A stretch of DNA of 30,891 nt from a virus. The position numbers and the translations under genes were made by a program. The notes under the pieces are model-generated. The model saw only the letters and a list, made by a program, of their open reading frames with translations. It ran no database searches and was not told the DNA's origin. Location: IMG/VR virus record IMGVR_UViG_3300010354_006493, positions 1 to 30,891 of that record, one strand, 5' to 3'. Of the stretch, positions 1,406-25,724 are shown piece by piece (position 1 is the stretch's first letter; each line of letters starts with the position of its first letter).

Positions 1406-1447
1406 TTTGTGGTAGGGTTTGTTTATTGCGAGGTAATAAAAGTTATT

Positions 1448-2140: not shown

Positions 2141-2153
2141 TTGGTGATAAATT

Positions 2154-5214: not shown

Positions 5215-5217
5215 ATT

Positions 5218-9036: not shown

Positions 9037-10338
9037 ATGTCAATTTCGAATGATCAAGTAATACTGGTTATTACTACATTCAAACAAGATAATGTATCAA
9101 GTGCACAAATAAATGTTTCAAATATTGTAACACAAGGCGATACCTCGCCTAGACTTTTATCAAACAATACAGAACAAAATACGATTGTTGTTTCTAATGT
9201 TAAATCACCAGAAATATCAATTTATCCTACTACAAATATTTTAGTTCCATACGAGCAAAATGCAACAACTGTTCTTGTTGCAACTCCTATTGGTATGCAG
9301 GGAATACAGGGACCAAAGGGAGATAGAGGAACTACTGGTGCAACTGGATCGATTGGTCCTACTGGTCCTACTGGTGCAACTGGATCGATTGGTCCTACTG
9401 GTCCCACTGGTCCTACTGGTGCGGACTCTATTGTTCCTGGTCCTACTGGTGCAACTGGATCGATTGGTCCTACTGGTCCCACTGGTCCTACTGGTGCGGA
9501 CTCTATTGTTCCTGGTCCTACTGGTGCAACTGGTCCTACTGGTCCACAGGGACCAACTGGTTCTGGTGGAGTTCTTGGTTATTGGGGTTCGTTTTGGTCA
9601 AATCTGGATCAATCTGCTACTGCTGCTAATACTGGATATGCAATTACTTTAGAGAATACCGATCCAGATTCAAATGGTGTTTATCTTTCGAATGCCAGTC
9701 GTATAAATTTTCAACATGCTGGTGTTTATAGCATTATATTTTCAGTTCAATTTGCAAACACTCACGTTCAGATACATGATGCAAATGTTTGGTTTAAGAA
9801 GAATGGTTCTAATATACCAGACAGTGACAGCAAATGGAGTGTAGTGGAGAGTCATGGTGGTGAAGAAGGTCATGCAATTGGTGCTGTTAATCTTGTATTA
9901 AAATTAAATGCTGGTGATTATATTGAATTGTATTGGCAAACGAATGACACTAGGATTATTCTTCAAAATGATCCTGCTGTTCCCCCCGCACCAGCAATTC
10001 CATCCGTAATAGTTACCGCAACTCAGGTGATGTATACCCAAATTGGTCCTACTGGACCAACAGGACCACAGGGAATACAAGGACCAACTGGACCAACTGG
10101 AACAATTTCTGGAACATATGTTTCCTCAATTAAGGGTGTTTATGGTGCGGTTACTGCAAAGGGAGTAACAAACCAGGTAGAAATAACCACCCGTGGGACT
10201 TCTGAACTGCAAATTGGATTAACAGATAATGTCACGATAACTGGAAATTTAGAAGTTCAAGGTAATATAAATATTCTAGGCACTCTCAGTGTCGATCAAA
10301 TGATACAAAATGTCCAGTTGGACGGTGGAGAATACTAA
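9037..10338 (+). CDS. Collagen-like fibre with C1q/TNF-like jelly-roll domain
   Basis: A 433-residue protein. Residues about 86-178 are G-x-y triplets rich in GPTG, broken twice by ADSIVP. A second collagen-like run lies near 337-355. Between them, roughly 182-335, is a beta-rich domain ([30 protein letters not shown]) of the C1q/TNF-like jelly-roll pattern used in trimeric bacterial and phage adhesins. The C-terminus ends VQLDGGEY, the island's shared tail. It likely forms a trimeric fibre shaft with a receptor-binding knob. The collagen DNA contains a perfect 75-bp tandem duplication (9373-9522), so shaft length can probably change. The start follows immediately after the previous stop. Confidence 0.85.
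9373..9522 (+). repeat. Perfect 75-bp tandem duplication in the collagen shaft
   Basis: Two copies, 9373-9447 and 9448-9522, are identical base for base by hand comparison. Each encodes 25 residues of [10 protein letters not shown]...ADSIVPGPT type. A partial related unit precedes the array (from about 9337), and a diverged start of a third unit follows at 9523. The period is a multiple of three, so gain or loss of a copy keeps the reading frame. Confidence 0.95.
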
Positions 10339-11787
10339 ATGGCAGTTATTAAAGTTAGAAGAACAACAACATCAACCCCTCCCAGTGGGTTGACATTCGG
10401 TGAACTTACATATGTTCAGGGAATTACTTCTTTTTATGTAACTAACAGTGATGGAAATCCTGTTCGTATTGGTGCTGAGGTCGATACTAATACTTCACTT
10501 GGAACCAGTAATAATAAAGTTCCAACTCAAGGTGCAGTAAAATCTTATGTTGACTCAGCAGTTGCTGGTGCTGGAACAAATCAGTTCAATCAAATTGCTG
10601 TCTCGGGACAACCTGGATTAACCGCAGATGCTGCAAGTGATATTCTTACCTTTGCTACTGGTTCTGGTATCAGCATCACAACAACTGCTGCTACTGATAC
10701 TATAACCATTACAAACTCTGGTGTATTGTCTTTGACAGGAACTTCAAACGAAGTTGAAGTCAATGCAAGCACTGGTGCAATTACAGTAGGTCTTCCAAAT
10801 GATGTTACCATCACAAACAATCTTACTGTTGGTGGAAATCTAACAATCAATGGAACAACAACTACAGTCAATAGCGATGTTACTACTGTAGATGATCCAA
10901 TGATGCTTCTTGGTACATCTGGTGGTGTACCAATCACCGTAACCGATGGTGGAAAAGACCGTGGTATAGCATTTACATACTTTGATGGATCAGTTGGAAG
11001 AACTGGTTTCTTTGGATTTGATTCAAGCGCATCTAGATTTACTTACGTTCCAGTAGCAACGATTTCGGGTGATATTGTAACATCTGGCAACGCAGGTGAT
11101 GCACAATTCAAAGATGTGTATCTTTATAACGGCACAAATACTGGACAATTTACTCTAGGTTCTCTTTCTGGTAATAGAACTTATACACTCCCTGATGTAA
11201 CTGGAACAATCATCACAACTGGTGATACTGGAACAGTAACATCAACAATGATTGCAAATGATACCATCGTGAATGCTGATATTAATTCATCAGCAGGAAT
11301 CGTGGATACTAAACTTGCAACGATTTCTACACCAGATAAAGTATCAATTGCTGCTCTTAATATTGATGGTGGAACTGATATTGGTGCTGCCATCGCAGAT
11401 GGCGATTTGCTGATTATCGATGATGGTGGTGTTGGAACTAATAGAAAAACAGATGTTAGTAGAGTTCCAACTTATGTCTTTGGTAAAGTCTCTGGTGATA
11501 TAACAATTAATTCATCTGGTGTTGCTGCAATCGGATCTGCGGTAATTGTTGATGCAGATATCAGTGGAGCAGCAGCAATTTCAGATGGTAAACTTGCAAC
11601 AATTTCAACACCAAATAAAGTATCACTTGCTGCTATAGATTTAGATGGGGCAACAGAAACAACAACAATTATTGGAACTGATATTTTGTTTGTTGATGAC
11701 GGAGCAAATGGAACTAATAGAAAAGTTACAGTAAATAATTTGTTTAGTGCTACTAGCACTGGTGTAATCGACGGCGGATCTTATTAA
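10339..11787 (+). CDS. Modular fibre/virion structural protein (KIKR-GLT module family)
   Basis: A 482-residue protein. The N-terminal module IKVRRTTTSTPPSGLTFGE leads to a TQGAVKSYVDS segment at about 64-74, shared with five other proteins in the island. The centre holds the NGTTTTVNSDVTTVDDP unit and DGGKDRGIAFTYFDG, a module common in marine T4-like phage structural proteins. Then comes a NRTYTLPDVTGTI strand and an internal repeat of about 75 residues (DTKLATISTPDKVS... and DGKLATISTPNKVS...). It ends STGVIDGGSY. It is Gly/Thr/Ser-rich with no cysteine cluster or membrane segment. Likely a trimeric tail-fibre or whisker-like virion component; the precise position in the virion is unknown. 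Its start abuts the preceding stop. Confidence 0.75.
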   Translation: MAVIKVRRTTTSTPPSGLTFGELTYVQGITSFYVTNSDGNPVRIGAEVDTNTSLGTSNNKVPTQGAVKSYVDSAVAGAGTNQFNQIAVSGQPGLTADAASDILTFATGSGISITTTAATDTITITNSGVLSLTGTSNEVEVNASTGAITVGLPNDVTITNNLTVGGNLTINGTTTTVNSDVTTVDDPMMLLGTSGGVPITVTDGGKDRGIAFTYFDGSVGRTGFFGFDSSASRFTYVPVATISGDIVTSGNAGDAQFKDVYLYNGTNTGQFTLGSLSGNRTYTLPDVTGTIITTGDTGTVTSTMIANDTIVNADINSSAGIVDTKLATISTPDKVSIAALNIDGGTDIGAAIADGDLLIIDDGGVGTNRKTDVSRVPTYVFGKVSGDITINSSGVAAIGSAVIVDADISGAAAISDGKLATISTPNKVSLAAIDLDGATETTTIIGTDILFVDDGANGTNRKVTVNNLFSATSTGVIDGGSY

Positions 11788-11793
11788 TTAATT

Positions 11794-11800
11794 GAGGTGA
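11794..11800 (+). promoter_or_regulatory. Strong ribosome binding site (GAGGTGA)
   Basis: GAGGTGA lies 3 nt before the ATG at 11804, inside a 16-nt gap. It supports that start and suggests the coiled-coil protein is made in quantity independently of the fibre upstream. Confidence 0.6.
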
Positions 11801-11803
11801 ATT

Positions 11804-12349
11804 ATGGATGAAGTGAATTATAACGATAAAGTGATATTACCATTTCTTGAGAAAAAGTGCAAAGACCTACTTTCAATGAATATGGTGCTAGAAGCAAAAC
11901 TTCTAGTCGAGACTCAAAAGTATAAAGATTTTGAGCAATTTGCAAATAATTATACTGACGAGATAGACAGTTTAAAAGATACAATTGAACAAAAAAACTT
12001 TGAGATCAATACTCTTCAGTCTCAGATGAGTCATGTTCATTCAGAAAAGAATGCAGTCATTAATAGAATTGAAACTGAAAAGAATGCAGTTATCAATCAG
12101 ACTCAGACAGAACGAAATGATCTTTCCACACAAGTGAATACACTTACTGATCAATTAAAAAGAGAGACAAGTGTGAAGGACAGCATTCTGGCAGAGTATA
12201 ATATTCTCAAAACAAAATTTGATGATCTAAATATTCAGAGAAATACACTGATGCAAGAAATTCAATCATTAAAATCTGAACTTGAGATTGCAAAAGCAAC
12301 TCCTGTTAAAAAAAGCACCAAAAAGGATTTAGTACATGGCAACAATTAG
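11804..12349 (+). CDS. Coiled-coil protein lying between two paralogous fibre genes
   Basis: A 181-residue protein that is almost entirely charged and helical. Heptad-like segments run from about residue 10 to 165, with a short repeat (EKNAVINRIET then EKNAVINQTQT near 76-97). The C-terminus is lysine-rich (PVKKSTKKD). There is no enzyme motif, signal peptide or membrane segment. A strong GAGGTGA precedes the ATG. The last 14 nt overlap the start of the next fibre gene, so the two are coupled. I do not recognise a family. Given its place between two paralogous fibres, it might be a fibre chaperone, a coiled-coil shaft component or a trimerisation/assembly factor. That is inference from context only. 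Confidence 0.65.
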   Translation: MDEVNYNDKVILPFLEKKCKDLLSMNMVLEAKLLVETQKYKDFEQFANNYTDEIDSLKDTIEQKNFEINTLQSQMSHVHSEKNAVINRIETEKNAVINQTQTERNDLSTQVNTLTDQLKRETSVKDSILAEYNILKTKFDDLNIQRNTLMQEIQSLKSELEIAKATPVKKSTKKDLVHGNN

Positions 12350-13949
12350 AGTCAAACGATCTACCTTATCCGCAGCACCAACTGGTTTAACTTTCGGTGA
12401 ACCCGCGTTTGTTGATGGTATTAATTCTTTTTATATCACAAAGAATGACGGGACATCGCTACGAGTTGGTGCAGAGGTAGATACCAATACTGCACTCGGA
12501 ACAAGTAATAATAAACTTCCAACACAAGGTGCAGTAAAATCTTATGTTGATGGTGTTGTTTCTGGTGGTGCTGGTCTTGTGAGTTCTCTTAATGGACTTA
12601 CTGGTTCACTTTCTATTCAACCTGGAAATTCTATTTCTGTAAGTGCTGCAAATAAAATAATTACAATTAATAATACTGGTGTAACCTCAATAAATGGTTT
12701 AACTGGTGCAGTTACAAATGTAGCAAGAACTAGCACTACAAATACTTTTACTCCTCTTCAAACTTTTAATGCTGGAATTCAATCAACTGGTGCAACATTT
12801 AGTTCTGGATTAATTACTGTTGAACGAGGTATAGGTGTTGCTGGTAGCAGTGCAATTGTAAGAGTTGTTGGCAGTGATATATCGGATAATTTATATAGTT
12901 CAGATATACGAGCAAATGCTGCTGCTACAGCAAATACAACACATACACTTCCAGCAACAACTGGAACATTGTTGAATACTAATTCTGCATATGTGTCTGG
13001 TATTACTGGAACTGCAAATCAAATTACAGCAAGTGCTTCAACTGGTTCTGTTACTCTTTCACTTCCATCAACTGTAACGGTTCCTGGTGCATTGAATGTC
13101 ACAACCAATCTTACAGTAACTGGAAATCTCACTGTCAATGGATCTACAACAACAGTTAACAGTGATGTGATGACTGTTGATGATCCAATTATTACTTTGG
13201 GTCTTTCTGGTGGTGTACCAATCTCTGTATCTGATGGTGGAAAAGATCGTGGTGTAGCATTTACTTATTTTGATTCTACTGGAAAAACTGGATTCTTCGG
13301 TTGGGATGCAAGTGCTTCTCAATTTATCTTTGCTGGAAATGCAAGTGTTTCTTCTGAATCTGTAACTGTAACTTCATTCTCTCCAATACAAGCAAGTTCT
13401 GCTAAACTTTATAGTTCAACAAATGCAGTGAACGGTGTACTTACACCAACAACACTGGCATCTGAAAGAACTTATACGCTACCTGATCATTCTGGTACAG
13501 TTGTTGTTCCTTCTGATCTTGGAACATCAAATTATATTCTTAAAGCAAATGGCACAACATCACAACCAACTTGGGTTGCTCAATCAACACTTTCTGTTGG
13601 ATCTGCATCAACATTAGCAACTGCCAGAACAATAGGAATCACTGGTGATATCAACGGGACAGCAACATCATTTGACGGATCTGCAAATATTAATATTTCT
13701 GCTGTCATTGCTCCAAATTCAGTAGAACTAGGAACTGATACAACAGGTAATTATGTTGCAACACTTTCAACTTCAAGTACGGGTCTTTCTGTCGCAAATT
13801 CTGGTTCTGAATCCGCAGCAGTGACTGTTAATTTCTCGACAATTACAAGTGGTTTAAATATGGGAACATTCTCTTTTGCTACTGGAGAATTTACGAATAG
13901 TTCTGGAACTGTTTCAATTGGAACAGTTGACGGTGGAACATTCACTTGA
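12336..13949 (+). CDS. Modular fibre/virion structural protein (KIKR-GLT module family)
   Basis: A 537-residue paralogue of the protein encoded at 10339. The N-terminal module is IRVKRSTLSAAPTGLTFGE with TQGAVKSYVDG downstream. A NGLTGAVTNVART unit follows, then SDIRANAAATANTTHTLP, the NGSTTTVNSDVMTVDDP unit with DGGKDRGVAFTYFDS, and the terminus VSIGTVDGGTFT. DNA stretches are still close to the sister gene: about 62 of 68 bases at 12483-12550 against 10486-10553, and about 61 of 70 at 13206-13275 against 10918-10987, by hand alignment. This indicates duplication or recombination between them. The start lies inside the end of the coiled-coil gene, with AAAGGA about 10 nt upstream. Confidence 0.75.
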   Translation: MATIRVKRSTLSAAPTGLTFGEPAFVDGINSFYITKNDGTSLRVGAEVDTNTALGTSNNKLPTQGAVKSYVDGVVSGGAGLVSSLNGLTGSLSIQPGNSISVSAANKIITINNTGVTSINGLTGAVTNVARTSTTNTFTPLQTFNAGIQSTGATFSSGLITVERGIGVAGSSAIVRVVGSDISDNLYSSDIRANAAATANTTHTLPATTGTLLNTNSAYVSGITGTANQITASASTGSVTLSLPSTVTVPGALNVTTNLTVTGNLTVNGSTTTVNSDVMTVDDPIITLGLSGGVPISVSDGGKDRGVAFTYFDSTGKTGFFGWDASASQFIFAGNASVSSESVTVTSFSPIQASSAKLYSSTNAVNGVLTPTTLASERTYTLPDHSGTVVVPSDLGTSNYILKANGTTSQPTWVAQSTLSVGSASTLATARTIGITGDINGTATSFDGSANINISAVIAPNSVELGTDTTGNYVATLSTSSTGLSVANSGSESAAVTVNFSTITSGLNMGTFSFATGEFTNSSGTVSIGTVDGGTFT

Positions 13950-13964
13950 TGTGTATTTTTGTGT

Positions 13965-13972
13965 GATAAATA
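13965..13972 (+). promoter_or_regulatory. T4-type late promoter-like box (GATAAATA)
   Basis: GATAAATA sits in the 33-nt gap between two fibre genes, 10 nt before the ATG at 13983, and matches the NATAAATA late consensus. Transcription would start very close to the ATG, leaving little leader. No Shine-Dalgarno sequence is seen there. Confidence 0.4.
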
Positions 13973-13982
13973 GACATATACT

Positions 13983-15518
13983 ATGGCAAAGATTAAGATC
14001 AAAAATTCTGTTACACCAGGATTGGCCCCCTCTGGATTGTCATTTGGAGAAATGGCAGTTAATATTGTCGATAAAAAGATCTTTATTGGAAATGCCGTAG
14101 AGGGTGTCGTTACTCTTCACGATCAACAAAATGTTGTAACTTCTATAAATGGAACCACAGGTGCTATTACCAATGTAGCACGGACGAATGAAGGAAATAC
14201 ATTCTCCGTTCGTCAGGTGATGAGTGCTGGTATCAGTGCTGCGAATCTCATTGTGGCGGGTGGTGCTACATTTACTACTATTTCATCATCATCTACCACT
14301 GATTGCGTGGATATCCTTGCATCGACAAACGGCATCGGATTGCGAGTGGCTCAGAATATAGGTGGTGGTGCTGCAACTATCGGTGGTATTCGTCTTGGTA
14401 GGAGTACCACGACTGCATCCAATTATCTCCTGTACGCTGCGTCTGGAACCTTCTATCTCATCAACGGAACTGGTGGTGCTGATCCTCAATTGATGTCGTT
14501 GAACTCTATTGATGTGAATTTCAATGTTCCTATTCGTGGAGCAACATTCTCATCCACTGCGGGTCAAATCACGGTACAACGAAGTGGTGCTGGAGTTGGT
14601 GGAGAAAGTGCAGTTGTTAGGATTGTTGGTACAGATGCCCTCAACTTCCAATACAACTCGGACATCAGGGCAAACGCCTCAGTTGCTGCGAACACAACGC
14701 ATACTCTTCCCGCAGTCACAGGAACATTGCTGAATACAGCAAGTTCCTATGTGGTATCGGTGAATGGATCAACTGGTGCAATTACTAATGTTGCCAAAAC
14801 TAATACCACTCAGACATTTACTCAACTTCAGGATTTTAGTGCTGGTATTTCAGCATCTACAGGTACTAATGTAATTGATGTGATCGCAACAACAGATGGT
14901 TGTGGTCTTAGAATCGCACAGGCAGCGTCTGGATCTAACGCAAGAATTGGTGGAATACAATTAGGTAGAGGTTCAAGTAATACAGCAAATAGTTATATTG
15001 AAAATTATGTAGGACAACTTAACTTTTTCAATGGTATCAGTGGAACAAGTGAAACTCCTGGTACTAATATGCTTCAGTTATCTACCACCAGTGCGATATT
15101 TGGTGTTCCAATAGCTGGAGCAACATTCAGTGGGTTGATAAGATCAACTTCTGGAATATCTGCATCTGGTGGTATTACGACAGCTTCTTATGTTTACGCT
15201 GAAAGTGGATTTAGAGTTGGCTCTGGTGCAATCAATTCACAGACTGGAACAGCATATACTTTACTGGCAGCAGATAACGGGGAAATTATAGTTTGGAACA
15301 CCAGTGCAGGGGCAACTCTGACCATTCCATCTGGTCTTCCTGTTGGATTTAATGCAACTTTGATTCAAACAGGAACTGCTGCGATTGGCATCACTGGGTC
15401 TGGAACAACACTCAATAGTTTCGAAGGTAAATTAAGAACAGCAGGACAACATGCTGCGGTAAGTATCATTTCCTACAGCAGCAATGTATTCAATGTTGCT
15501 GGAGGACTAACGGCATGA
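13983..15518 (+). CDS. Modular fibre/virion structural protein with two diverged internal repeats
   Basis: A 511-residue protein. The N-terminus is IKIKNSVTPGLAPSGLSFGE, the island module without the TQxAV segment. Two related units of about 90-100 residues follow: one with GLRVAQNIGGGAATIGGIRL, the other with GLRIAQAASGSNARIGGIQL. Each ends near GATFS. A SDIRANASVAANTTHTLP unit like that of the 12336 protein lies between them. The C-terminal 100 residues (TLLAADNGEIIVWNTSAGA, PVGFNATLIQTG) are a common phage tail-fibre end domain. It does not end in DGG-Y. The first unit is far richer in G+C than the second, which points to mosaic origin. It ends in an ATGA overlap with the RCC1-like gene. 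Confidence 0.75.
   Translation: MAKIKIKNSVTPGLAPSGLSFGEMAVNIVDKKIFIGNAVEGVVTLHDQQNVVTSINGTTGAITNVARTNEGNTFSVRQVMSAGISAANLIVAGGATFTTISSSSTTDCVDILASTNGIGLRVAQNIGGGAATIGGIRLGRSTTTASNYLLYAASGTFYLINGTGGADPQLMSLNSIDVNFNVPIRGATFSSTAGQITVQRSGAGVGGESAVVRIVGTDALNFQYNSDIRANASVAANTTHTLPAVTGTLLNTASSYVVSVNGSTGAITNVAKTNTTQTFTQLQDFSAGISASTGTNVIDVIATTDGCGLRIAQAASGSNARIGGIQLGRGSSNTANSYIENYVGQLNFFNGISGTSETPGTNMLQLSTTSAIFGVPIAGATFSGLIRSTSGISASGGITTASYVYAESGFRVGSGAINSQTGTAYTLLAADNGEIIVWNTSAGATLTIPSGLPVGFNATLIQTGTAAIGITGSGTTLNSFEGKLRTAGQHAAVSIISYSSNVFNVAGGLTA
15501..15505 (+). promoter_or_regulatory. Ribosome binding site (GGAGG) inside the preceding gene
   Basis: GGAGG ends 9 nt before the ATG at 15515 and lies within the last codons of the fibre gene. 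It supports the overlapping start and strong translation of the RCC1-like protein. Confidence 0.65.
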
Positions 15519-16636
15519 TAATTCCAAGCTTCAAGGCTGGTATTTTTTCCTTTATTAAGCGAAATGCAGTAGCAGTAGTAAATAAAAAATTATATGGTTG
15601 GGGACTTAATACATTGTATCGATTGGGTCTTGGTGATACCACACAGAGAACATCACCAACACAATTGGGATCTGATGTAAATTGGGAATATGCTGGTTCA
15701 ATTGCTTTAAGTACACTTGCAGTAAAGACAACAGGAACTCTATGGGCATGGGGTAGAAACTCAAATGGTCAACTTGGCGTTGGGGATACTACAGATAGAA
15801 CATCACCCACCCAAGTTGGATCTAGCACAGATTGGTCTAAAGTTTATGGTCAGAGACACACAATTGCACTGAAAACAACAGGATCACTTTGGGCATGGGG
15901 ATACAACGGATATGGTCAACTCGGTCTTGGTGACCTCACACAGAGAACATCACCAGTCCAAGTTGGATCCGATACGACTTGGACTAGAATTGCTTGTGGT
16001 GCTGTACATACAATGGCAATAAAATCAAATGGAACATTATGGGGATTTGGAATTGCAAGTTTAGGTCAATTTGGAAATGGTACTTATAATCAATATTATA
16101 CTCCAACACAAATTGGAAGTGATACTAATTGGGCAGAGGTATCTTCTAAATCTTTTTCCACGCTTGCAATAAAAACAAATGGAACTTTGTGGGCAACTGG
16201 AAGAAATCAATCTGGGCAACTTGGACTTGGTGATACTACATTAAGAACAACATTCACTCAGGTTGGAACTGATACAAATTGGGCAAAAGTTTCATGTGGC
16301 AGAGATCACACGCTAGCAGTCAAAACAAATGGAACTTTGTGGGCATGGGGGAGAAACAGTAGCACACAACTCGGAGATGGAACTGGCACATACAGATATT
16401 CCCCCGTCCAGATTGGGTCTGCAACAAATTGGTCAAATGTCAGTGCTGGATATTATCACAGTATTGGACTGAGAAGTGATGGTACTTTATGGGCGTGGGG
16501 TAAAAATACAAATGGTCAAGTTGGTAATGGAACCACTTCGGCATATGTTGCGTCGCCAACACAAATAGGATCTAGTTATAGTTGGGGACACATTAGTGCT
16601 GGTAGGGAGCACACATTCGCAAGAACTAGTATTTAA
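15515..16636 (+). CDS. RCC1-type seven-bladed beta-propeller protein
   Basis: A 373-residue protein made of seven repeats of about 50 residues from residue 26 to the end. Each follows the pattern LWAWGxNxxGQLGxGDTT...SPxQxGSxxxWxxVxxGxxHTxAxKxxGT. The seven copies fill the protein, so a closed propeller is expected; the N-terminal strand AVAVVNKK may close the ring. RCC1-like folds are best known as eukaryotic exchange factors and also occur in bacterial secreted and adhesin proteins. Here the gene is translationally coupled (ATGA, GGAGG) to a fibre gene and surrounded by fibre genes, so a virion-surface or receptor-binding role is more likely than regulation. No signal peptide is seen. Confidence 0.85.
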   Translation: MIIPSFKAGIFSFIKRNAVAVVNKKLYGWGLNTLYRLGLGDTTQRTSPTQLGSDVNWEYAGSIALSTLAVKTTGTLWAWGRNSNGQLGVGDTTDRTSPTQVGSSTDWSKVYGQRHTIALKTTGSLWAWGYNGYGQLGLGDLTQRTSPVQVGSDTTWTRIACGAVHTMAIKSNGTLWGFGIASLGQFGNGTYNQYYTPTQIGSDTNWAEVSSKSFSTLAIKTNGTLWATGRNQSGQLGLGDTTLRTTFTQVGTDTNWAKVSCGRDHTLAVKTNGTLWAWGRNSSTQLGDGTGTYRYSPVQIGSATNWSNVSAGYYHSIGLRSDGTLWAWGKNTNGQVGNGTTSAYVASPTQIGSSYSWGHISAGREHTFARTSI

Positions 16637-16642
16637 CTTATT

Positions 16643-18430
16643 ATGATTATGCATTTTTTAAGTGGCTTGCCACGCAGCGGATCAACTGTTCTTTCTTCAT
16701 TATTGAATCAACATCCGCAAGTATATTCCACAAGCACAAGTGGTTTAGTTGAGATCATGGGTGCTGTTTGCACTACATGGGAGTCTTCTCCTTCCACTAT
16801 TGCTCAAGGCTCTGATACAGGTGAAGTTTATCAAATGTTGAAGTCTGTTATGGAAAGTAAATATGAGCATATATCCAAGCCAATAATTATTGATAAAAGT
16901 AGAGCATGGGTGAATCCAGCAATAATAAAAACTATGAGTAAGATTTTAGGAAGACCTCCTAAGATTATAGCAACTGTTAGATCCACTACTGATTGTGCTG
17001 CATCATTTGTTCGAGTGGCAAAGCCAGATGATATGAATGATTTTTTATCAAACTCTTCTTTAATTAAACACCTAAAGTCATCGTATACTTTACTTTCTGC
17101 TGGATTTAAAGAATTTCCAGAGAGTATTCTTTTTATTGACTATGACGATCTTATTTCAAATCCACAGAAAGAAATGAATAGAATACATGATTTTTTGGGA
17201 TTGGATAAGTATGAATATGACTTTCAACAAATTGATACGAATGTTGTAGCAGAGAATGATGAAAAAGCGTGGGGTATTAAAAACCTCCATAAGATATCAT
17301 CTAAACTCGAATATCAAAACAGTATAAGTAGCAAAGATGTTCTAGGATATTATTTTGATTCGTTTGATCAGTCTAAATTCTGGAAAGATTCCACGATAAA
17401 GATGGAAAAGAAAAAATTAGATTTATCGATGGAACTGTTGAAAGAGGGAAAAATAGAAGATAGTTTTTATATTTTAACGCAAGCAAGATTGGAAAATCCA
17501 AAATGCAACAGGATAGCATTTAATATGGGTTGGCATTTGATAAGACAGAATAAATTACAGGAAGGTATGCGATGCCTTGCGATGGGAAGATATGATAATT
17601 GTTTTGGTAATCCAAAACCAAATATCCCAACAGAGATATGGGATGGAAAAAGTAAAGGTAAAATTTTATATTATCTAGAAGGTGATATAGGAGATCAGAT
17701 TCATGCACTTAAATATGTGGAAGACATAATCAGAAGAGGCTGTGAGATTATTGTCGCGTGCTCTCCAGAAATATTCGACATAGTAAAATTATGTTCTGGT
17801 GTAAGTATGATTGTAAGTCATTTTTCCGTGAGCGGAATTTATCATGATTTCTGGATTCCATCTATGTCTGTTCTATTACCGCTAGGATATGAGTTTAAAG
17901 ATATAAAGAAAAATAGTTATATTAAGACTAATAGAAATAAAATAAATAAAAGAAAAAAAATAGGATTATATTTGAATGATAATTTTTGCAATGATAAAGA
18001 AAATAATAAATTATTTTTTAATTGGTTTTTAAATAATTTAAAAAATACAGATTATGATTTTATTTGTTTACATGATAATGATCTTGAATATTCAAAATTT
18101 ATCAAAAAACCAGAAATAAATAGTTGGATAGATATGATGAAAAACATAGAGTCGTGTGATATGATTATATCTACCAATTCAAATGTATCACATTTATCTG
18201 GAGCTATGGGCATACAAACATGGGCAATAACTCCTCTTCTTTGTAATTATACTTGGTTATCTCAGAATGATAATAGTCCGTATTACGAGTCTGTGACATT
18301 ATTCAAGCAAAAGAAAGTGGATGATTTGAAATGTGTGTTGAATCAGATAGAAGAAAAGATAAAAAATTTAAATAAAAATACTTGGAGAAGAACATGGCAA
18401 AATATGTTAAAGTTGAAAACAACGAAGTAA
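16643..18430 (+). CDS. Sulfotransferase fused to TPR / GT-B-like glycosyltransferase domain
   Basis: A 595-residue two-part protein. Residues 1-190 are a sulfotransferase: the PAPS 5'-phosphosulfate loop is LPRSGSTVL (9-17), the 3'-phosphate segment is TVRSTTDCAASFVR (111-124), and the typical DYDDLISNPQKEMNRI lies at 167-181. Residues about 255-325 look TPR-like. Residues about 335-540 resemble the GT-B fold of TPR-linked family 9/41 proteins, with YYLEGDIGDQIHALKYV (343-359) and the nucleotide-sugar-binding end CDMIISTNSNVSHLSGAMG (505-523). It would sulfate and possibly glycosylate a surface target. Two ATGs (16643, 16649) are possible starts. The 3' third is extremely A-rich. The terminus overlaps the next gene by 37 nt. 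Confidence 0.75.
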   Translation: MIMHFLSGLPRSGSTVLSSLLNQHPQVYSTSTSGLVEIMGAVCTTWESSPSTIAQGSDTGEVYQMLKSVMESKYEHISKPIIIDKSRAWVNPAIIKTMSKILGRPPKIIATVRSTTDCAASFVRVAKPDDMNDFLSNSSLIKHLKSSYTLLSAGFKEFPESILFIDYDDLISNPQKEMNRIHDFLGLDKYEYDFQQIDTNVVAENDEKAWGIKNLHKISSKLEYQNSISSKDVLGYYFDSFDQSKFWKDSTIKMEKKKLDLSMELLKEGKIEDSFYILTQARLENPKCNRIAFNMGWHLIRQNKLQEGMRCLAMGRYDNCFGNPKPNIPTEIWDGKSKGKILYYLEGDIGDQIHALKYVEDIIRRGCEIIVACSPEIFDIVKLCSGVSMIVSHFSVSGIYHDFWIPSMSVLLPLGYEFKDIKKNSYIKTNRNKINKRKKIGLYLNDNFCNDKENNKLFFNWFLNNLKNTDYDFICLHDNDLEYSKFIKKPEINSWIDMMKNIESCDMIISTNSNVSHLSGAMGIQTWAITPLLCNYTWLSQNDNSPYYESVTLFKQKKVDDLKCVLNQIEEKIKNLNKNTWRRTWQNMLKLKTTK

Positions 18431-18801
18431 TTCAGTGCTTGCATTATCTGCCAGAAAATGCAGTTGGTGATTGGAGAGAAGCAATAGAAATTGAACCATC
18501 ATTGATCCCAACAAGACAAATACGGGGATTTCATTCATTCGATTTGACAAAGACTCCAGTGGAAATAATATGGTCCGTTATTAATCTAACTGTAGATGAA
18601 AGAAAAAATACTTTACTGGGTGAACTTGATCAAAAATCATATGAGACAGTTCAGAAAGAATTGGTAAAGGAATTTGAAGGGCAGAGTTCTAATTTTGAGT
18701 TTGTACAACAGGCAATATTTTTATATAGAAATAAAAGAAATAATTTGCTGAGTTTCACCACTCACGAAGAAATAGACACATTTTTACTAGAAAATCCTTG
18801 A
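18394..18801 (+). CDS. Conserved-looking small phage protein, unknown function
   Basis: The ATG at 18394 is preferred over one 12 nt upstream because GGAG (18384-18387) is well spaced for it and MAKYVKVENNEVIQ is a natural N-terminus. The product is 135 residues with no signal peptide or membrane segment. It has a short beta-rich beginning, a W-rich middle (PVEIIWSVINLT) and a charged helical second half (DERKNTLLGELDQKSYETV). The outline resembles small accessory or assembly proteins near phage tail fibres, but I do not recognise a family. The first 37 nt lie inside the sulfotransferase-fusion gene. It is followed by a 75-nt gap that may hold a very small frame (18798-18875). Confidence 0.6.
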   Translation: MAKYVKVENNEVIQCLHYLPENAVGDWREAIEIEPSLIPTRQIRGFHSFDLTKTPVEIIWSVINLTVDERKNTLLGELDQKSYETVQKELVKEFEGQSSNFEFVQQAIFLYRNKRNNLLSFTTHEEIDTFLLENP

Positions 18802-18875
18802 TACATACATTAAGAGCAACTGCTGGATATACCGCACCTGTTGATATTATTGTTTCAGTTCTAGAAATCACATGA
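18798..18875 (+). other. Possible 25-codon micro-ORF or remnant of a fibre end
   Basis: In the -1 frame relative to the previous gene, codons are open from 18744 to a TGA at 18873-18875, one base before the next ATG. Read from the TTG at 18798 (which overlaps the previous stop as TTGA), it gives a 25-residue peptide ending GYTAPVDIIVSVLEIT. The composition looks protein-like, and the tight stop-start spacing is typical of this operon. It could be a tiny gene, a frameshifted extension of the upstream gene, or the remnant C-terminus of a deleted fibre. No good slippery heptamer or ribosome-binding site was found. Low confidence. Confidence 0.2.
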
Positions 18876-18876
18876 C

Positions 18877-19941
18877 ATGCCACTTAACTTTCCGAGCAAT
18901 CCTGCATTAAACCAATATTATGTCTTCAATGGTATTCGTTGGAGATGGAATGGTTATGCTTGGTTAGCAGCAGGAGTTTGTGGTGCTGGTGGAGTGTTTG
19001 CAGGAATATCTGGTGATTATGTCTCTGGAATAACTGGTGGTGCTGGTGTCACTGTATCAGGTCCAACTGGATTAGTCGAAGTATCTCTACGACTAGACGA
19101 ACCAAATATTGGTCCAATTGGTACTCCAATATCACATACTGCTCCCAGTTCATTTAGTGCAGATACAGGAACTGCTCGCAGGGTTGCATTCCTACAGGGA
19201 GATGGAAGTATTCAGTTTGACTTTATCAAAAACTATGATGTGTTTCGTCAAGCGGAATTTCAATTTGATATTAATACATTTACAATACCTGGATTAAATT
19301 TACAATTAGTTGGACAACTGGGAACACAATTAGATTTAAATCCATTCCAAGCACAAATGACATATAACCAATCTCCTATCGATGTGATGATTGATTTGCT
19401 TTCTCCATCCACTGGTGCTGTGTTTCCAATAACTGTGACTAGTCCAGGATTAGTAACACATAATTTTGTCTCTGGGGATTTTTTAGCATATAGAGGATTT
19501 AATGGTGTTAATGATTATTTTAGATTTAGACTTGGCGCTACTGGACAGAATAATGATGGCACTTTAAGTTATAAATCTAAATTATTTGACGCATATTATT
19601 ATAACAGTATATTTTATGGGACTAGTCAATCAATTACAGTAACGGGATTGGATTTTGCGTCGTTTGTTCCTGTTGCCAGTGTAACAAAATCATATACCAT
19701 AAATACAACTATACCGTTTGGAGATCCAAATCCATTTTATCTTTATTTTGCATATCCAGCAAGGTTAGGATCTGCAACATTTAGAGATAATGCAACCAAT
19801 CTGGAAGGTGGATTTGTTCAGCAAATAATCAATGGTGTGGGTGAGTTTTCATACACTAATACAAAAGGATTTACTGAAAATTATATAATTTACAGAAGCG
19901 AGCAGGGTAATTTGGGAACAGTCAGTATCACGGTGACATAA
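18877..19941 (+). CDS. Fibre/virion structural protein with W/Y-rich N-terminal module
   Basis: A 354-residue protein. It starts PLNFPSNPALNQYYVFNGIRW, then RWNGYAWLAAG, the same W/Y-rich module as at the N-terminus of the protein encoded at 6471. A Gly-rich linker follows, with ITGGAGVTVSGPTGLVEVSL near 50-70. The rest is beta-rich with many aromatic residues (YFRFRLGATGQN, FYLYFAYPARLG) and ends ENYIIYRSEQGNLGTVSITVT. It has no DGG-Y terminus. The TAATG overlap with the next gene indicates coupled translation. It is probably a tail-fibre or baseplate-associated adhesin with a C-terminal recognition domain. I recognise no specific family for the C-terminal 250 residues. Confidence 0.65.
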   Translation: MPLNFPSNPALNQYYVFNGIRWRWNGYAWLAAGVCGAGGVFAGISGDYVSGITGGAGVTVSGPTGLVEVSLRLDEPNIGPIGTPISHTAPSSFSADTGTARRVAFLQGDGSIQFDFIKNYDVFRQAEFQFDINTFTIPGLNLQLVGQLGTQLDLNPFQAQMTYNQSPIDVMIDLLSPSTGAVFPITVTSPGLVTHNFVSGDFLAYRGFNGVNDYFRFRLGATGQNNDGTLSYKSKLFDAYYYNSIFYGTSQSITVTGLDFASFVPVASVTKSYTINTTIPFGDPNPFYLYFAYPARLGSATFRDNATNLEGGFVQQIINGVGEFSYTNTKGFTENYIIYRSEQGNLGTVSITVT

Positions 19942-20612
19942 TGCCTATTGAACTAATATCAAATATTGCCCAGAAAAATCGTGCTGCAAATGTTTCAAAT
20001 ACAGCGTTTTTCTATTTGATGGACACTTCTAACATTGATTATAGGATTGCTGGTATACAGAACGATAGCAGTTTTGTTCCAACACTTGCAGATAACTTTA
20101 AATACATTTTAAGAAATACAGCGTCATTACATACTTCTTTTGGAACAATTACTGGTGTCCAGAACAACGATATAGTAATTTGTCAAGCTGGTTCGTTTTA
20201 TGTTTACGTCGATGTCAATAATTCTAAAACAAATCAAGGTGGATTAGTATATAATGACGCGGATGATAAACTTTATTACTACAACGGAGTTGATTGGAGA
20301 AGTTTAGGACTTGGATCTTTAGTTGGAACCGCAGATCAAATTCAAATCACTGGATCTACTGGAGATGTGCAGATCGGATTGACCCCCATTGTGATTGTTC
20401 AAAATATAATACAAACTCCGATATTAAGATTTGCAAATGGAATTACAATGGGATCTGTTGGTGATATTATTCAATTAACAGGAAACCTAAATATAAAAGG
20501 TAGTCTTCTGGTCGATGGAGAAGTCGTAACCAAGACCACCTTCTCAGGATACACATTAGATTCAGAACTAGAAACAGTAGTCAGTGTAGCAGTAGATGCA
20601 GGAGATTATTAA
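19941..20612 (+). CDS. Small virion structural protein with DGG-Y-like terminus
   Basis: A 223-residue protein. The N-terminal half (MPIELISNIAQKNRAANVSN, FFYLMDTSNIDYRIAG) ends in a small module with DADDKLYYYNGVDWRSLG at about 107-124, a short phage structural unit of 'displays Y-Y-N-G-x-x-W' type. A unit GTADQIQITGSTGDVQIGL and a strand LNIKGSLLVDGEVV follow. The terminus is SVAVDAGDY, a variant of the shared DGG-Y end. It sits between two larger fibre genes with TAATG overlaps on both sides. It may be a fibre adaptor or a short fibre; no specific family is recognised. Confidence 0.6.
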   Translation: MPIELISNIAQKNRAANVSNTAFFYLMDTSNIDYRIAGIQNDSSFVPTLADNFKYILRNTASLHTSFGTITGVQNNDIVICQAGSFYVYVDVNNSKTNQGGLVYNDADDKLYYYNGVDWRSLGLGSLVGTADQIQITGSTGDVQIGLTPIVIVQNIIQTPILRFANGITMGSVGDIIQLTGNLNIKGSLLVDGEVVTKTTFSGYTLDSELETVVSVAVDAGDY

Positions 20613-23600
20613 TGCCAACAAACCCAATTATTAAAATTAAGCGCGGAGAAAATCAACCACCACTCTGGAATGGTACAACGGGTATCACTTCTGGAGAATT
20701 TGCATATGATAAGGTAAATAATGTCCTATACATTGGTATTACTGGTGGGTATTGTGGTGCTGCCGCCGCTATTTTAGATCAGGTTCTGATTTCAGATAGT
20801 CATATGAATGTCATTCCTGTTGGAATGCAAATTTCAAATGATAATACATTTGGTGGTCCTGGAGCAAATGATGGAGATTATCTTGGATACGCATCAAATA
20901 CTGTTCCAACTACAAAAGCAGTAAAAGATTATGTAACCACCGTTAAAGCAAACACATCTGCTGGATTTACTTTCTATGCTGGTGAGGGTATTACATTTCA
21001 AATTGCAGATCCAACAGATCCACGGCAAGGCCTTACATTTATCAATACTGGTGTATTAAAAGGATTTACTGCTACAAATTTATCTGGAAATATTGTTGGT
21101 AATAATCGTATTGAACCACAAACTGCCAAAGACTTGTTAACTTTCGTTGCTGGAAGTGGTATTCAACTTTTCGGTGAAAACACAGCTAAGAGAGAAATTA
21201 GATTTACTAATATTGGTGTTACTGGCATCAATGGTCGTACTGGTGATATTAAAAATTATGATGTCATAACATCTCTTAGTGGATCTACTGCTGCTATTGG
21301 TCTTGCTGTTCAAGCAAATATAGTTCCGCAAACTCCTATAATTACTTCGCCTACCACTCCGTTAGGTAGTTTTATAATTGCACACGCAGATGAGGGAACC
21401 AATGCAGTTGGTACATTTGGTGGAATCGTTGCCAATGAATATACTACTCCCCAAATTACTGTAAATAAATTCGGGCACGTCACAGCAGCTACAAATGTTC
21501 CTGTAAATTTTTCAACTATTCTTCCCACAGGATTTACTGAAGCGGTAGAAGATATTGCTTATGTTGGAATTACTTCTGCAAACTTTAATCCAAGTTATGC
21601 TGGAATTTGTTTTGCATATGTGGATAATGGTACTGGTAGAGGAACCCTGTTTGCATTCAACACTGGTGTTCGTTCAATAGGAATTGTCGGCGGAACTGGT
21701 GCTTCTGGTGAAGCAAAACTTCGAGGAGGTCAAGGTGTTGCACTTTCATGGAGTGCTAATGCTGACAGATCAATACAAATTGATAACACTGCTCCATACT
21801 ATAGAACAATTGCAGCAACTAGAGCAAGTGAATTTAATGTTAATGGTGGTATCTATGATGGTGGTTATACTGGACCTGGAGCATTTCAACTTGTAAATGC
21901 TGACAGTTATCAAGAAACACTAAGAATGTATGCTGGTAGAGGTATTGGTATTTCTGCTGGTACATTTGGTGTTCAAGATGGTATAATGATCTGGAACAGT
22001 GGATTAAATACACTCACTGCACTAGATGAAAATGGAAATCCAGTCGGAACGGGTGGACTTTCTGGAAATGCCGAACTTCAAGCAGGAGCAAATATTACTC
22101 TTGCAAGAAATGGTAATAGGATTGTAGTTAATGCTTCTGGTGGTAGTTCCACTGGTTCTGTGACATATCTAAAGGCGGATTATAGTAGAGATCAAGATTT
22201 AAATACTGATGATGGTCAATACGATGGAACTGTTGGTGTAACTGGTGCTATTGAATTCATAGGAAGAAATGGTTTAATCACAAGACAGACTACCGCCAAT
22301 ATCGGCTCTGAGAATCCACCAGGAACGAAGGATGGTCAACTTTTTGTTGGTCTTTCCAGCAAGGTATATCTTCCAGCAAATCAGTTCCAAGCAGCAGGCG
22401 ATGCACCACATATCGTTGATCCTGATGATGCCACAGCATATGCTGTTTTAGGATTACCAAGAACAAGAGACACACTTGGCAATCCAGCTACCCTACTCCC
22501 AAAAGATGATTATCTTCTTCCAACTCAGTTTAATTATCTAAAGACAGATTCAATTGAGGGTGGTCTTACTGCTGCAATGTCATATGATTCGGGATCGCCG
22601 TTTTATCAGACGTATGTTGCAAGTTTAGAGTATCCCACTCCACCAGATCCAACTAAATCTACTCCAGGAAAAATTCTTATTCTTATCTCAAGAGAAGGTG
22701 AGTTGGTCCGTTCAAATGGCACTACAATTGCTGAAATTGACAGAGCACAAGCAGAAATTAGACTTCTGGGATGGCCTAATCCAGAAAATATGGGTGCATA
22801 TATCGATATTACATGGGTCGGCAATCCTAATACAAACGTAGACGATTGCCCAGCTCCTGGATGTGTTGGATTCCCCCCTAAACTTCCTTCTTGTGCTGTA
22901 GAGATTGATGGAAGTGGAGAATACAATGCAATCGGACAATATGTTGTAAGCGCATCAGCTAACAAACCAACAACTGTTGTAAATGGTAATTTTGTTGCAA
23001 AAGACTCGATGTATGTCACTGAAGACATTTGGTTGGCTGGAAATATTATTGATGCTAAAACTGGATGTCTATACACAAATCCTGGTGGTAATGGTGGACA
23101 ACCATTTAATGGATATCTTGTTGGTAATTTAACAGTTACAGGTGATGTTGCTGGTAGTCCAAGTCCACAGGGAAACATATATGTACATGGATCAGAAGCA
23201 TATTTCAATGTAAATAATTTTGCAATTGAAGACAATTTAATTAAGATCGGTGGAATTTCTGGTGGAGCAGCATTAAACGGAACTGAAACCCAAGGACACA
23301 GAGAAAGTGATCGTGGAATCATATTCTATACAAATATGGCAACTCCTGCACTTTCTGTTAAAGATGGTGCAAATTCTACGATTACAACTAATAAAAATAC
23401 ATTTGTTGGTATAGATCGCAGTGAAGGTGTATTTAGATTAATTGCAGATGCTACTATTACACCAGATGCTAATAACGCCGAAAGCGTTAGTGGTACTCCT
23501 CTTAGCATATATGCAGGAGATCTCAATAATGTTGGTGTTACTGCTGATAATAACGGGAGAATATATCTAAAGGGAAGATCTTCTACTACTCCTGTAACTT

Positions 23601-24028
23601 CTATAAATGCTGCTGGACATTTAACACTTACTGCTCCAACTACTAGTGCGCAGCAATCAACATTTGTTTTGGATAATCTTTCTCAATTGATCTTGGGTGC
23701 AAATTCTATTGTAAAAACCGCTGCTGGTACAGTAGAATTTTTACACGGTGTGACTTTTGGTGTTGGTGGTTCTCCAAGAACAACAAGTGATACAGCATCT
23801 GCTTCTCATAATTTGCAATTTACTTGGAGAAGAACTGATGGTGCTCCGCAACGAGTTGTAAATATGAGAAATCTTGGAGATAATTCAAAAACACAATTGG
23901 TTGATGTTGGTAGATATGCAACAACTGATGGTGTGGATCTTTCTTCCAGTGGTCAAGAGTCTCCACAGCAAGTATTATGGAATAAAACTCTATCCACTGG
24001 AACAATTATAGACTGTGGTACATACTAG
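20612..24028 (+). CDS. Large modular fibre/virion structural protein (1138 residues)
   Basis: The longest gene here. The N-terminal module reads IKIKRGENQPPLWNGTTG, then ITSGEFAYDKVNNVLYIG and VPTTKAVKDYVTT at about 102-114, the island-wide pattern. The middle has repeated beta-rich Gly/Thr units (EAKLRGGQGVALSW, YRTIAATRASEFNVNGGIYDG, and a later EGVFRLIAD segment). Near 840-880 a NFAIEDNLIKIGGISGG unit corresponds to the TVDDP module of the sister fibres. It ends STGTIIDCGTY, a DGG-Y variant with cysteine. A segment around residues 740-780 (DDCPAPGCVGFPPKLPSC) is unusually cysteine- and proline-rich for this island. Likely a long tail-fibre or baseplate fibre. Overlap TAATG upstream; a late-promoter-like box follows directly after its stop. 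Confidence 0.75.
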   Translation: MPTNPIIKIKRGENQPPLWNGTTGITSGEFAYDKVNNVLYIGITGGYCGAAAAILDQVLISDSHMNVIPVGMQISNDNTFGGPGANDGDYLGYASNTVPTTKAVKDYVTTVKANTSAGFTFYAGEGITFQIADPTDPRQGLTFINTGVLKGFTATNLSGNIVGNNRIEPQTAKDLLTFVAGSGIQLFGENTAKREIRFTNIGVTGINGRTGDIKNYDVITSLSGSTAAIGLAVQANIVPQTPIITSPTTPLGSFIIAHADEGTNAVGTFGGIVANEYTTPQITVNKFGHVTAATNVPVNFSTILPTGFTEAVEDIAYVGITSANFNPSYAGICFAYVDNGTGRGTLFAFNTGVRSIGIVGGTGASGEAKLRGGQGVALSWSANADRSIQIDNTAPYYRTIAATRASEFNVNGGIYDGGYTGPGAFQLVNADSYQETLRMYAGRGIGISAGTFGVQDGIMIWNSGLNTLTALDENGNPVGTGGLSGNAELQAGANITLARNGNRIVVNASGGSSTGSVTYLKADYSRDQDLNTDDGQYDGTVGVTGAIEFIGRNGLITRQTTANIGSENPPGTKDGQLFVGLSSKVYLPANQFQAAGDAPHIVDPDDATAYAVLGLPRTRDTLGNPATLLPKDDYLLPTQFNYLKTDSIEGGLTAAMSYDSGSPFYQTYVASLEYPTPPDPTKSTPGKILILISREGELVRSNGTTIAEIDRAQAEIRLLGWPNPENMGAYIDITWVGNPNTNVDDCPAPGCVGFPPKLPSCAVEIDGSGEYNAIGQYVVSASANKPTTVVNGNFVAKDSMYVTEDIWLAGNIIDAKTGCLYTNPGGNGGQPFNGYLVGNLTVTGDVAGSPSPQGNIYVHGSEAYFNVNNFAIEDNLIKIGGISGGAALNGTETQGHRESDRGIIFYTNMATPALSVKDGANSTITTNKNTFVGIDRSEGVFRLIADATITPDANNAESVSGTPLSIYAGDLNNVGVTADNNGRIYLKGRSSTTPVTSINAAGHLTLTAPTTSAQQSTFVLDNLSQLILGANSIVKTAAGTVEFLHGVTFGVGGSPRTTSDTASASHNLQFTWRRTDGAPQRVVNMRNLGDNSKTQLVDVGRYATTDGVDLSSSGQESPQQVLWNKTLSTGTIIDCGTY

Positions 24029-24036
24029 TATAAATA
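24029..24036 (+). promoter_or_regulatory. T4-type late promoter-like box (TATAAATA)
   Basis: An exact TATAAATA begins right after the stop of the 1138-residue fibre gene, in a 17-nt gap, 9 nt before the ATG at 24046. This is the canonical T4 late -10 element. It suggests the last two fibre genes may be transcribed separately late in infection. Chance occurrence of one such octamer in 31 kb of AT-rich DNA is possible; its position in a tiny gap is the argument for it. Confidence 0.5.
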
Positions 24037-24045
24037 CTTTATATT

Positions 24046-24897
24046 ATGAATCCTATATTGAAAATAAAAAGAAATGTAAATACATTTCCCACTGGTTTGA
24101 CCCCTGGTGAATTGGCAGTAGATTTAGGTATCAAGAAATTATATGTTGGTAATAATTCTTCAGTTTCTATTCCCATATCCGCTCAAGTAAGTTCTGATGT
24201 AACTTTGGGTGGAAGTAACGCAAGTCATGATGTTATTTCCACCCAGAATGCAATTAAAACATATATTGACAATACTTTAATAAATAATCCACCACCAGTT
24301 GCGCCACCAAAAGAAACTCTTTTGGCAAGATTTACTGGTCAGCAATTAATATCAAATGTTGCAATTACTCCTACAAATCAGTTTGAATTATACAATACTC
24401 CAATAATAACTCAAACTGCTAATATGGGAATTCAAATTGAAGATCCAAATGATCCTGTGTCTAGTGGTTTTTTTCAAACGACAAAAACCTCAATGACTTT
24501 AAATGTGAATTATAGTGTTTATTTGTCTTCTGTAGATACAAGTGTTATTGCAGCAGAAGGAACAAATTTAGGAACATTTAGATTGGTTGGTTTGAGATTG
24601 ATCAATAAAAGTAATTCAACTGCTAACTATTATGGAATTCAGACTGTTTTGCCAGCAATAGGAAATGAAAATGTTGGAGGACTTCAGGGATTGCCGACAC
24701 TAATCAATGGAAATGCTACTATTGTCTTACCAAAATATACAAGTACAGCAAAATGGGAAATACAATTAATATATCAAGTGAGATCAAATGATTCGACTTT
24801 ATTTATGGGTAATCTTTTAGATAATGTTATAGACCCTGTTGTATCAGATGGTTATGGTGTTAGAATAGAGATGATAAAGTTAGGAGAAGTACAGTAA
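24046..24897 (+). CDS. Short fibre: KIKR-GLT module plus beta-rich C-terminal domain
   Basis: A 283-residue protein. The N-terminal module ILKIKRNVNTFPTGLTPGE is followed by LAVDLGIKKLYVGN and STQNAIKTYID at about 66-76. A proline-rich hinge (NNPPPVAPPKE, 83-93) leads to a beta-rich domain of about 185 residues (MTLNVNYSVYLSSV, STAKWEIQLIYQVRSN), plausibly a jelly-roll knob. It ends GVRIEMIKLGEVQ with no DGG-Y tail. It is the simplest two-domain member of the family, one attachment module plus one knob, and so a useful reference for the larger paralogues. It overlaps the next gene as TAATG and is preceded by TATAAATA. Confidence 0.7.
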   Translation: MNPILKIKRNVNTFPTGLTPGELAVDLGIKKLYVGNNSSVSIPISAQVSSDVTLGGSNASHDVISTQNAIKTYIDNTLINNPPPVAPPKETLLARFTGQQLISNVAITPTNQFELYNTPIITQTANMGIQIEDPNDPVSSGFFQTTKTSMTLNVNYSVYLSSVDTSVIAAEGTNLGTFRLVGLRLINKSNSTANYYGIQTVLPAIGNENVGGLQGLPTLINGNATIVLPKYTSTAKWEIQLIYQVRSNDSTLFMGNLLDNVIDPVVSDGYGVRIEMIKLGEVQ

Positions 24898-25724
24898 TGG
24901 CAAATCCTATTATAAAAATAAAAAGAGGAAATGGAAAACCTCCTAGTTATTCTTTTGATGATGTAAATTTAGTACAAACTGGATTAACTGCTGGTGAGTT
25001 AGGCGTAAATTTAAATACTTCAAACAGTGGATATGTTTTGTATATCGGTGACAATACAGGCAGTGCAATAACATTTGGAGCAGAATTAGATTCAAATTCA
25101 AATCTTGGAATAAGTGATGTGAAAATTCCAACTCAGAAAGCAGTCAGGGATTATATTTCAACATATGTTCCATCATCTTCTTCGACAGAAGTTGTTTCTT
25201 ATTATAACACAGCAGTGCAAACGATTGCTGCCAACACAGAAGCTTCAGTTTTATTTCAAACACAAGAATTTGCAAGTCCTTCTACTGGAATTAGTGGATT
25301 AGCATTTAACACCAACAATACTTTTCAGTATAGTGGATCTGGTACAATATACTTATTGGTTTCTTATCAGATAACTTGGCAACAATTTGCTACTGCCAGT
25401 CAATCTTATAATAGTAGAAATATAGTTCGTTCTTCTTGGATTCAGAAATCTTTTAGTAGTTCTGTTGCTGCTGATAATGTGTATGGGTTTTCTACTATAC
25501 TTCTTCCTCCTCTAATAGCAACCGCTGCGGGGTCTATTGCTGGAACACAAACTGCCACTGCACTTATATCTCTAACATCAGGACAATCTTTTTCAATTAG
25601 AGCAAAAAATCATGGAACAATTCCTTCTGCTATTTTGAATACTGCCACAGTAAACAATACTGGAACAGCTGCACCTGTAGTTAATTTTAACAGAGCATCT
25701 AGAGTTCAAGTTATTAAGGTATAA
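24897..25724 (+). CDS. Short fibre: KIKR-GLT module plus C1q/TNF-like domain
   Basis: A 275-residue protein, built like the previous one. The N-terminal module is IIKIKRGNGKPPSYSFDD, then LTAGELGVNLNTSN, LYIGD and PTQKAVRDYIS at about 80-90, followed by a serine-rich hinge (VPSSSSTEV). The C-terminal domain of about 180 residues is beta-rich, with FQYSGSGTIYLLVSYQITW and LISLTSGQSFSIRAKNHG, matching the C1q/TNF-like jelly-roll pattern of trimeric adhesin knobs. It ends NRASRVQVIKV. Probably a paralogue of its neighbour with a replaced knob, giving a pair of alternative receptor-binding heads. It is the last gene of the fibre island; dUTPase begins 5 nt later. Confidence 0.7.
   Translation: MANPIIKIKRGNGKPPSYSFDDVNLVQTGLTAGELGVNLNTSNSGYVLYIGDNTGSAITFGAELDSNSNLGISDVKIPTQKAVRDYISTYVPSSSSTEVVSYYNTAVQTIAANTEASVLFQTQEFASPSTGISGLAFNTNNTFQYSGSGTIYLLVSYQITWQQFATASQSYNSRNIVRSSWIQKSFSSSVAADNVYGFSTILLPPLIATAAGSIAGTQTATALISLTSGQSFSIRAKNHGTIPSAILNTATVNNTGTAAPVVNFNRASRVQVIKV

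Follow-up and report, generated by a model that had tools for sequence, protein, structure and literature searches.

The window analysed here, a stretch of 30,891 bases that is the entire IMG/VR record IMGVR_UViG_3300010354_006493 from an uncultured marine bacteriophage, encodes six fibre-type proteins that share one N-terminal module. We found a short C-terminal tag, with the consensus I/V-D-G-G-x-Y/F, on six proteins of the window, and this tag is a portable C-terminal motif which pairs in one direction with a module at the start of the next gene. A preliminary description of this DNA, which missed the tag, had read the six module proteins as several fibres that either compete for a single virion site or share it. 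That reading does not sit well with the arrangement of the genes, because a tag gene stands immediately upstream of the module gene, in one orientation, a pattern seen in the window and repeated at hundreds of unrelated phage loci. This one-way order instead fits modules that dock in series on one another's C-termini, and we consider it probable that the partner of each module is the tag of the fibre protein encoded just upstream, that the fibres are built serially in gene order and that the window carries two chains of this kind. The interpretation thus shifts from parallel, competing fibres to serial ones.

Few parts of phage genomes are as hard to predict as the fibre genes, whose bodies share no sequence and whose segments are hard to match to their partners. 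A tag rule would place the segments of a fibre in order, would separate anchors (tag only), middles (both elements) and tips (module only), and would help to name many proteins of ocean and freshwater-lake phages that are now annotated as hypothetical. Both the tag and its order rule appear to be undescribed in the searchable literature; our text searches, which were not exhaustive, found no phage paper on the tag.

The C-terminal tag and the module of the next gene

The window contains six tags and six modules, all on the + strand. Proteins with a tag and no module (class T) are g6471 (open reading frame [ORF] 6471-8582), which ends in IDGGTF(E) at 8559..8576; g9037 (ORF 9037-10338), which ends in LDGGEY at 10318..10335, directly before g10339; and g19941 (ORF 19941-20612, whose end overlaps the beginning of g20612), which ends in VDAGDY at 20592..20609, a tag conserved in the related contig L007. 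Proteins with both elements (class MT) are g10339, whose tag IDGGSY (11767..11784) is followed by the coiled-coil gene g11804 and then by the module gene g12336; g12336, with VDGGTF(T) at 13926..13943, directly before g13983; and g20612, with IDCGTY at 24008..24025, directly before g24046 and conserved in contigs L005, L006 and L007. The module proteins g13983, g24046 and g24897 have no tag (class M).

Tags of this kind ended 47 non-redundant ORFs of our first gene set (as DGGx(Y/F)), against 0.16 expected. The residues preferred in 90 non-redundant tags upstream of modules were I/V, D, G, G, T/S/N and Y/F, and there was no conservation further upstream. The codons of the tag vary (GAT/GAC, GGN), and the spacing from the tag to the next gene ranges from -1 to about 120 nucleotides (nt).

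We searched the viral collection for DNA encoding IDGGxY followed by a stop, using the codons GAT and TAY (scan 1), and replicated the search with the disjoint codons GAC and TTY, which encode IDGGxF (scan 2), after freezing the module profile. Both scans returned samples of matches, not a census. Among the matches listed, the tag stood at a gene end in 118/119 cases in scan 1 and in 111/120 cases in scan 2. For the scrambled tag IGDGxY the collection gave 13 matches, each in a frame of <=35 codons and none at a gene end.

The module profile applied to scan 1 had itself been built with loci of that scan, a dependence from which the replication and a set of loci selected by module are free. In the replication, a module started the next gene in 78/102 cases, compared to 36/691 control pairs (odds ratio 59, p 1e-57), and was found in the previous gene in only 4/83, both among the matches listed. 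When loci were selected by module and not by tag, 24/34 module genes followed a tag, compared to 1/374. In a set made non-redundant on the protein bodies, with the last 6 residues excluded, a tag was followed by a module in 96/136 cases among the matches listed, compared to 47/1538 for the control. The order of tag before module prevailed by 70:2 in tag-selected loci (among the matches listed), by 24:0 in module-selected loci and by 7:0 in body-selected loci. A search for natural fusions with an internal tag gave two internal tag matches, neither of which was fused to a module.

The N-terminal module and its relatives

The preliminary description had grouped six ORFs, 275-1138 residues in length, on the strength of one N-terminal docking module, and both the ORFs and the common module proved to be real. 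In a leave-one-out test, a profile of five modules was searched for the sixth against 9,000 reversed ORFs, whose best decoys reached E 0.2-1.1, and each module was recovered by the other five. The E-values were 2.5e-27 for g10339 (module at 10339..10578), 1.3e-22 for g12336 (12336..12575; 52.9% identical to g10339 across residues 1-140), 2.7e-18 for g24046 (24046..24285), 6e-17 for g24897 (24897..25187), 5.8e-9 for g20612 (20612..20959, with inserts) and 3.1e-4 for g13983 (13983..14156), the weakest of the six, which is linked mainly to g12336 (34% identity over 281 residues). The module always occupies residues 1-100.

The motif that had been given for the module, a basic strand followed by P-x-GLT-x-GE and usually TQxAVxxY, is present but looser than described, with only G, G and E invariant across the six. 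The protein g13983 has IKIKN in place of K-R and lacks TQxAVxxY, g20612 reads TTGITSGE and has long inserts, and in g24897 the P sits 12 residues ahead of GLTAGE. AlphaFold2 nevertheless predicts the same strand order for g10339 and g24897, ending in the TQxAVxxY helix, with a predicted local distance difference test (pLDDT) score mostly of 83-94 in the core of the g10339 module; the predicted N-terminal folds of these two proteins are therefore not unrelated. These results support the view that the six are fibre-type proteins with one common N-terminal docking module. The accompanying picture of swapped shafts and heads holds only in part: g10339 and g12336 share 52% identity over 202 body residues, and g24046 and g24897 are paralogues related beyond the module. 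Nor do we find a swappable host-range toolkit, as had been suggested; g20612, g24046 and g24897 are instead conserved orthologues in fixed order in related contigs, with a full-length g20612 orthologue in L007 and orthologues of both g24046 and g24897 in L005, L006 and L007.

Sequence comparisons indicate that the module is a divergent branch of a known kind of phage fibre connector, Mtd_N. None of the six window modules reaches E<1 against Pfam, including PF18454 (Mtd_N), while in a broader alignment of modules from the window and related loci this family is matched by 14/32, with a best E of 2.4e-15. The profile of the window family and an Mtd_N-like profile align over 37 columns (hhalign probability 65%, E 6e-5). 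Superposed with VIA-align on residues 7-49 of Mtd (1yu0), the g10339 model places 41 residues in register at 2.5 Å with a Z of 2.6, which is below a safe Z; on the N-terminus of the phage hyaluronidase HylP (2c3f) it places 60 residues with a Z of 2.8, again with weak statistics. We treat these low Z values as supportive only.

Like Mtd_N of the Bordetella phage BPP-1 protein Mtd (PF18454, PDB 1YU0), the window modules have an N-terminal basic strand, a GE strand and a third strand; unlike it, they have no Pfam hit of their own, and five of the six add the TQxAVxxY helix. BPP-1 Mtd lies at the distal end of the tail fibres, and its N-terminal beta-prism is the presumed attachment domain (PMC10743442). 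The module profile also aligns with the KxYVD segment of the HylP hyaluronidase fibre, whose body and enzymatic function differ. A separate resemblance concerns the shaft regions and not the module: PHROG 697 ('structural protein'), from T4-like cyanophages, matches the bodies of g10339 (E 2e-23) and g12336 (E 7e-32).

Proposed serial docking and competing explanations

If the fibres are serial, the C-terminal tag of one protein would dock into the N-terminal module of the next, so that a T protein would be anchored to the virion, one or more MT proteins would extend the fibre and an M protein would end it and carry the tip. In the window, one chain would run from g9037 (T) through g10339 and g12336 (both MT), with the coil g11804 between these two, to g13983 (M), and the other from g19941 (T) through g20612 (MT) to g24046 and g24897 (M). 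We infer from the genes that tag and module bind physically, that the proteins are trimeric and that gene order is the order along the fibre.

Fibres with segments joined end to end have precedents. The long tail fibre of T4 is joined in this way from gp34, gp35, gp36 and gp37, and related modules are matched at their N-termini by PHROG families annotated as 'long tail fiber distal subunit'. The neck fibre of Anabaena phage A-1(L) consists of an anchor trimer of gp82, about 14 gp81 bead trimers arranged head to tail and a tip trimer of gp80 (PMC10966104). Its operon order, gp82-gp81-gp80, is its physical order, as we propose for the window from genes alone; neither tag nor module is present in gp80, gp81 or gp82, which makes this fibre a precedent for the way of working only. 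We give an even chance to the broader proposal that the six-residue tag and the Mtd_N-type module form a general plug-and-socket code in T4-like, T7-like and other phages, one that would fix the order of segments while allowing their exchange. If this is true, sequence alone would be enough to tell the order of the fibre segments and their partners.

Several observations weigh against serial docking. Within the window, g6471 has a tag and g24897 a module for which no partner lies alongside. Elsewhere, the gene before an Mtd-type module is in some cases untagged; among strictly untagged non-module genes that precede modules in T-MT positions, most carry degenerate tags such as MEGGEF, VNGGNF, ITGGTY and LDGESY. 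T4-like cyanophages place a tag protein between the A gene (described below) and gp13 with no adjoining module, the 77-residue tag proteins of T7-like phages precede another gene and not a module, and G001, a 33-kb T7-like contig, has two tags, the second of them adjacent, and one module. There is no tag at the end of BPP-1 bbp9, the fibre gene upstream of mtd. Finally, when the tail of g9037 and the module of g10339 were modelled with AlphaFold2 as a read-through chain with a one-residue linker, which is a weak test, the tag was a low-confidence coil and did not dock.

The numbers of tags and modules bear on the same question. Each of the complete genomes S-SRM01 and S-SKS1 encodes exactly one strict tag protein (T) and one module protein (M), 92-102 kb apart; in S-SRM01, a cultured Synechococcus phage, their genes are at 119597-120238 (tag) and 212414-214273 (module). 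Most T7-like contigs with the 77-residue tag protein are short; among the longer ones, G001 and G010 have one module each. From these counts, tags and modules are mostly, although not perfectly, one to one. G020, a 188-kb contig of the T4-like cyanophage kind, has one module. The T7-like protein itself (71-84 residues; MSNYTKTTxFxxKDSL...SPTFTGTV...IDGGTY) occurs with no module gene alongside in L154, L175, L181, L189, L198, L212 and others.

Could the tag's partner instead be an assembly factor or a folding chaperone, or could the tag cap the trimer, with the module adjacent simply as a result of co-translational assembly of one fibre? A gene of the g8602 family, which matches a PHROG named for tail fibre assembly, often precedes T genes, and tag genes without an adjacent module exist, both of which would suit this explanation. 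It does not account for the tag preceding the module, at 70:2 among the matches listed and at 24:0, nor for the terminal M proteins, which have no tag although they too need to fold, nor for the strict one-to-one count of T and M in the two complete genomes. We therefore regard it as unlikely. The proposal that the six modules bind one virion site, with alternative fibres that compete or coexist, is in keeping with one module family on different bodies, but we judge it improbable given the one-way pairing in unrelated phages, the tags at the ends of three of the six module proteins themselves and the conservation of g20612, g24046 and g24897 in a fixed order.

Tag and module might also be common but independent fibre pieces that merely co-occur, given that genes for fibres cluster and that two module genes can be neighbours without any tag. 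Clustering cannot yield the 70:2 asymmetry (among the matches listed), nor the 24/34 against 1/374 in loci chosen regardless of tag, and we think this explanation very improbable. In several window genes the codons of the tag lie just before the next start, which would be expected if the tag reflected the DNA, either as the Shine-Dalgarno sequence (GGNGG) of the gene that follows or as a conserved recombination junction for fibre shuffling. However, the codon-disjoint patterns (GAT...TAY and GAC...TTY) both find the tag at gene ends, the glycine codons vary and the tag is kept across gaps of 50-120 nt, which are common. On the codon variation, the spacing and the codon-disjoint scans we rejected an origin of this kind, to which we give almost no credence.

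Fibre tip, helper genes and surroundings

The C-terminal head of g24897 (25176..25721, + strand) is predicted, by structure comparison, to be a C1q/TNF-like jelly roll. With VIA-align it reaches a Z of 13.9 against 9h38_A, 13.7 against 4ous, a C1q domain, and 12.6 against 8ke9_A, which is the CBD of the short fibre of cyanophage A-1(L), and with Foldseek an E of 1.4e-6. This predicted head is plausibly a receptor- or sugar-binding tip. Sequence searches of the PDB gave no usable match for g24046, for g24897 or for two T/MT proteins.

Many loci read T-MT-M or A-T-MT-M, where A is the family of g8602 (8602..9036, + strand; motif YDIYAEQG). A member of this family, of about 113 residues, immediately precedes the first T in 19/118 loci. 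The match of g8602 to PHROG 3304 ('L-shaped tail fiber protein assembly') has an E of 6.8e-6, and the family is a possible virion-side anchor or assembly factor. The coiled-coil gene g11804 (11804..12349, + strand), between g10339 and g12336, belongs to an arrangement that recurs in L074, L075, L077 and L078, and a short gene followed by an M gene was seen at 6 loci in one scan and at 10 in the other, among the matches listed. Some runs have a short coil gene between their MT and M genes. The T protein g9037 (9037-10338) contains collagen-like repeats, including two identical 75-base units (9362-9436 and 9437-9511), and then a stretch that is C1q-like by eye. Another N-terminal module, FPxxPxxGxxYxxxNRxWxYxGYGW, occurs in g6471 (twice, at residues 1-33 and 101-127) and in g18877; similar starts are found in L074, L076 and L078, and its resemblance to a foldon-like hairpin is by eye only.

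The record is probably a fragment of a larger genome. Its source appears to be a T4-like, Kyanoviridae-like phage, because its family B DNA polymerase is 47% identical over 491 residues to that of Synechococcus phage ACG-2014f. Searches with tblastn of phage records with g20612, g10339 and g24897 gave no useful match. Among related contigs, L007 keeps the order g18877-g19941-g20612-g24046-g24897-dUTPase-methylase-...-polB-TrmH with full-length orthologues, and L005 and L006 retain it from inside g20612 onward, L006 having the C-terminal part of g20612 together with g24046 and g24897. The other half is retained in L074, with the FPxxP protein, g8602, ..., one g12336-like gene, the coil, a g13983-like gene, an RCC1 protein and a sulfotransferase; a single gene thus stands at the place of the g10339/g12336 pair.

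The polymerase of the window (28659-30143) ends after about 494 residues (...EMKRRGLTK), with a TrmH/SpoU-like methyltransferase gene (30166-30708) directly 3' of the shortened gene. The same break is present in L005, L006, L007 and L077, and the polymerase is therefore probably split into two genes. Directly 3' of the first fibre chain lies an RCC1-like repeat protein (15515-16636). Since L074 and cultured S-SRM01 also have RCC1 genes within their fibre clusters, these proteins may belong to the fibre tip or have an accessory role. The fibre genes of the window, like those of S-SRM01 and L074, are flanked by genes for sugar epimerases, an aminotransferase, a glycosyltransferase and a sulfotransferase (181-6441 and 16643-18430), which possibly modify the fibres or the sugars of the host surface.

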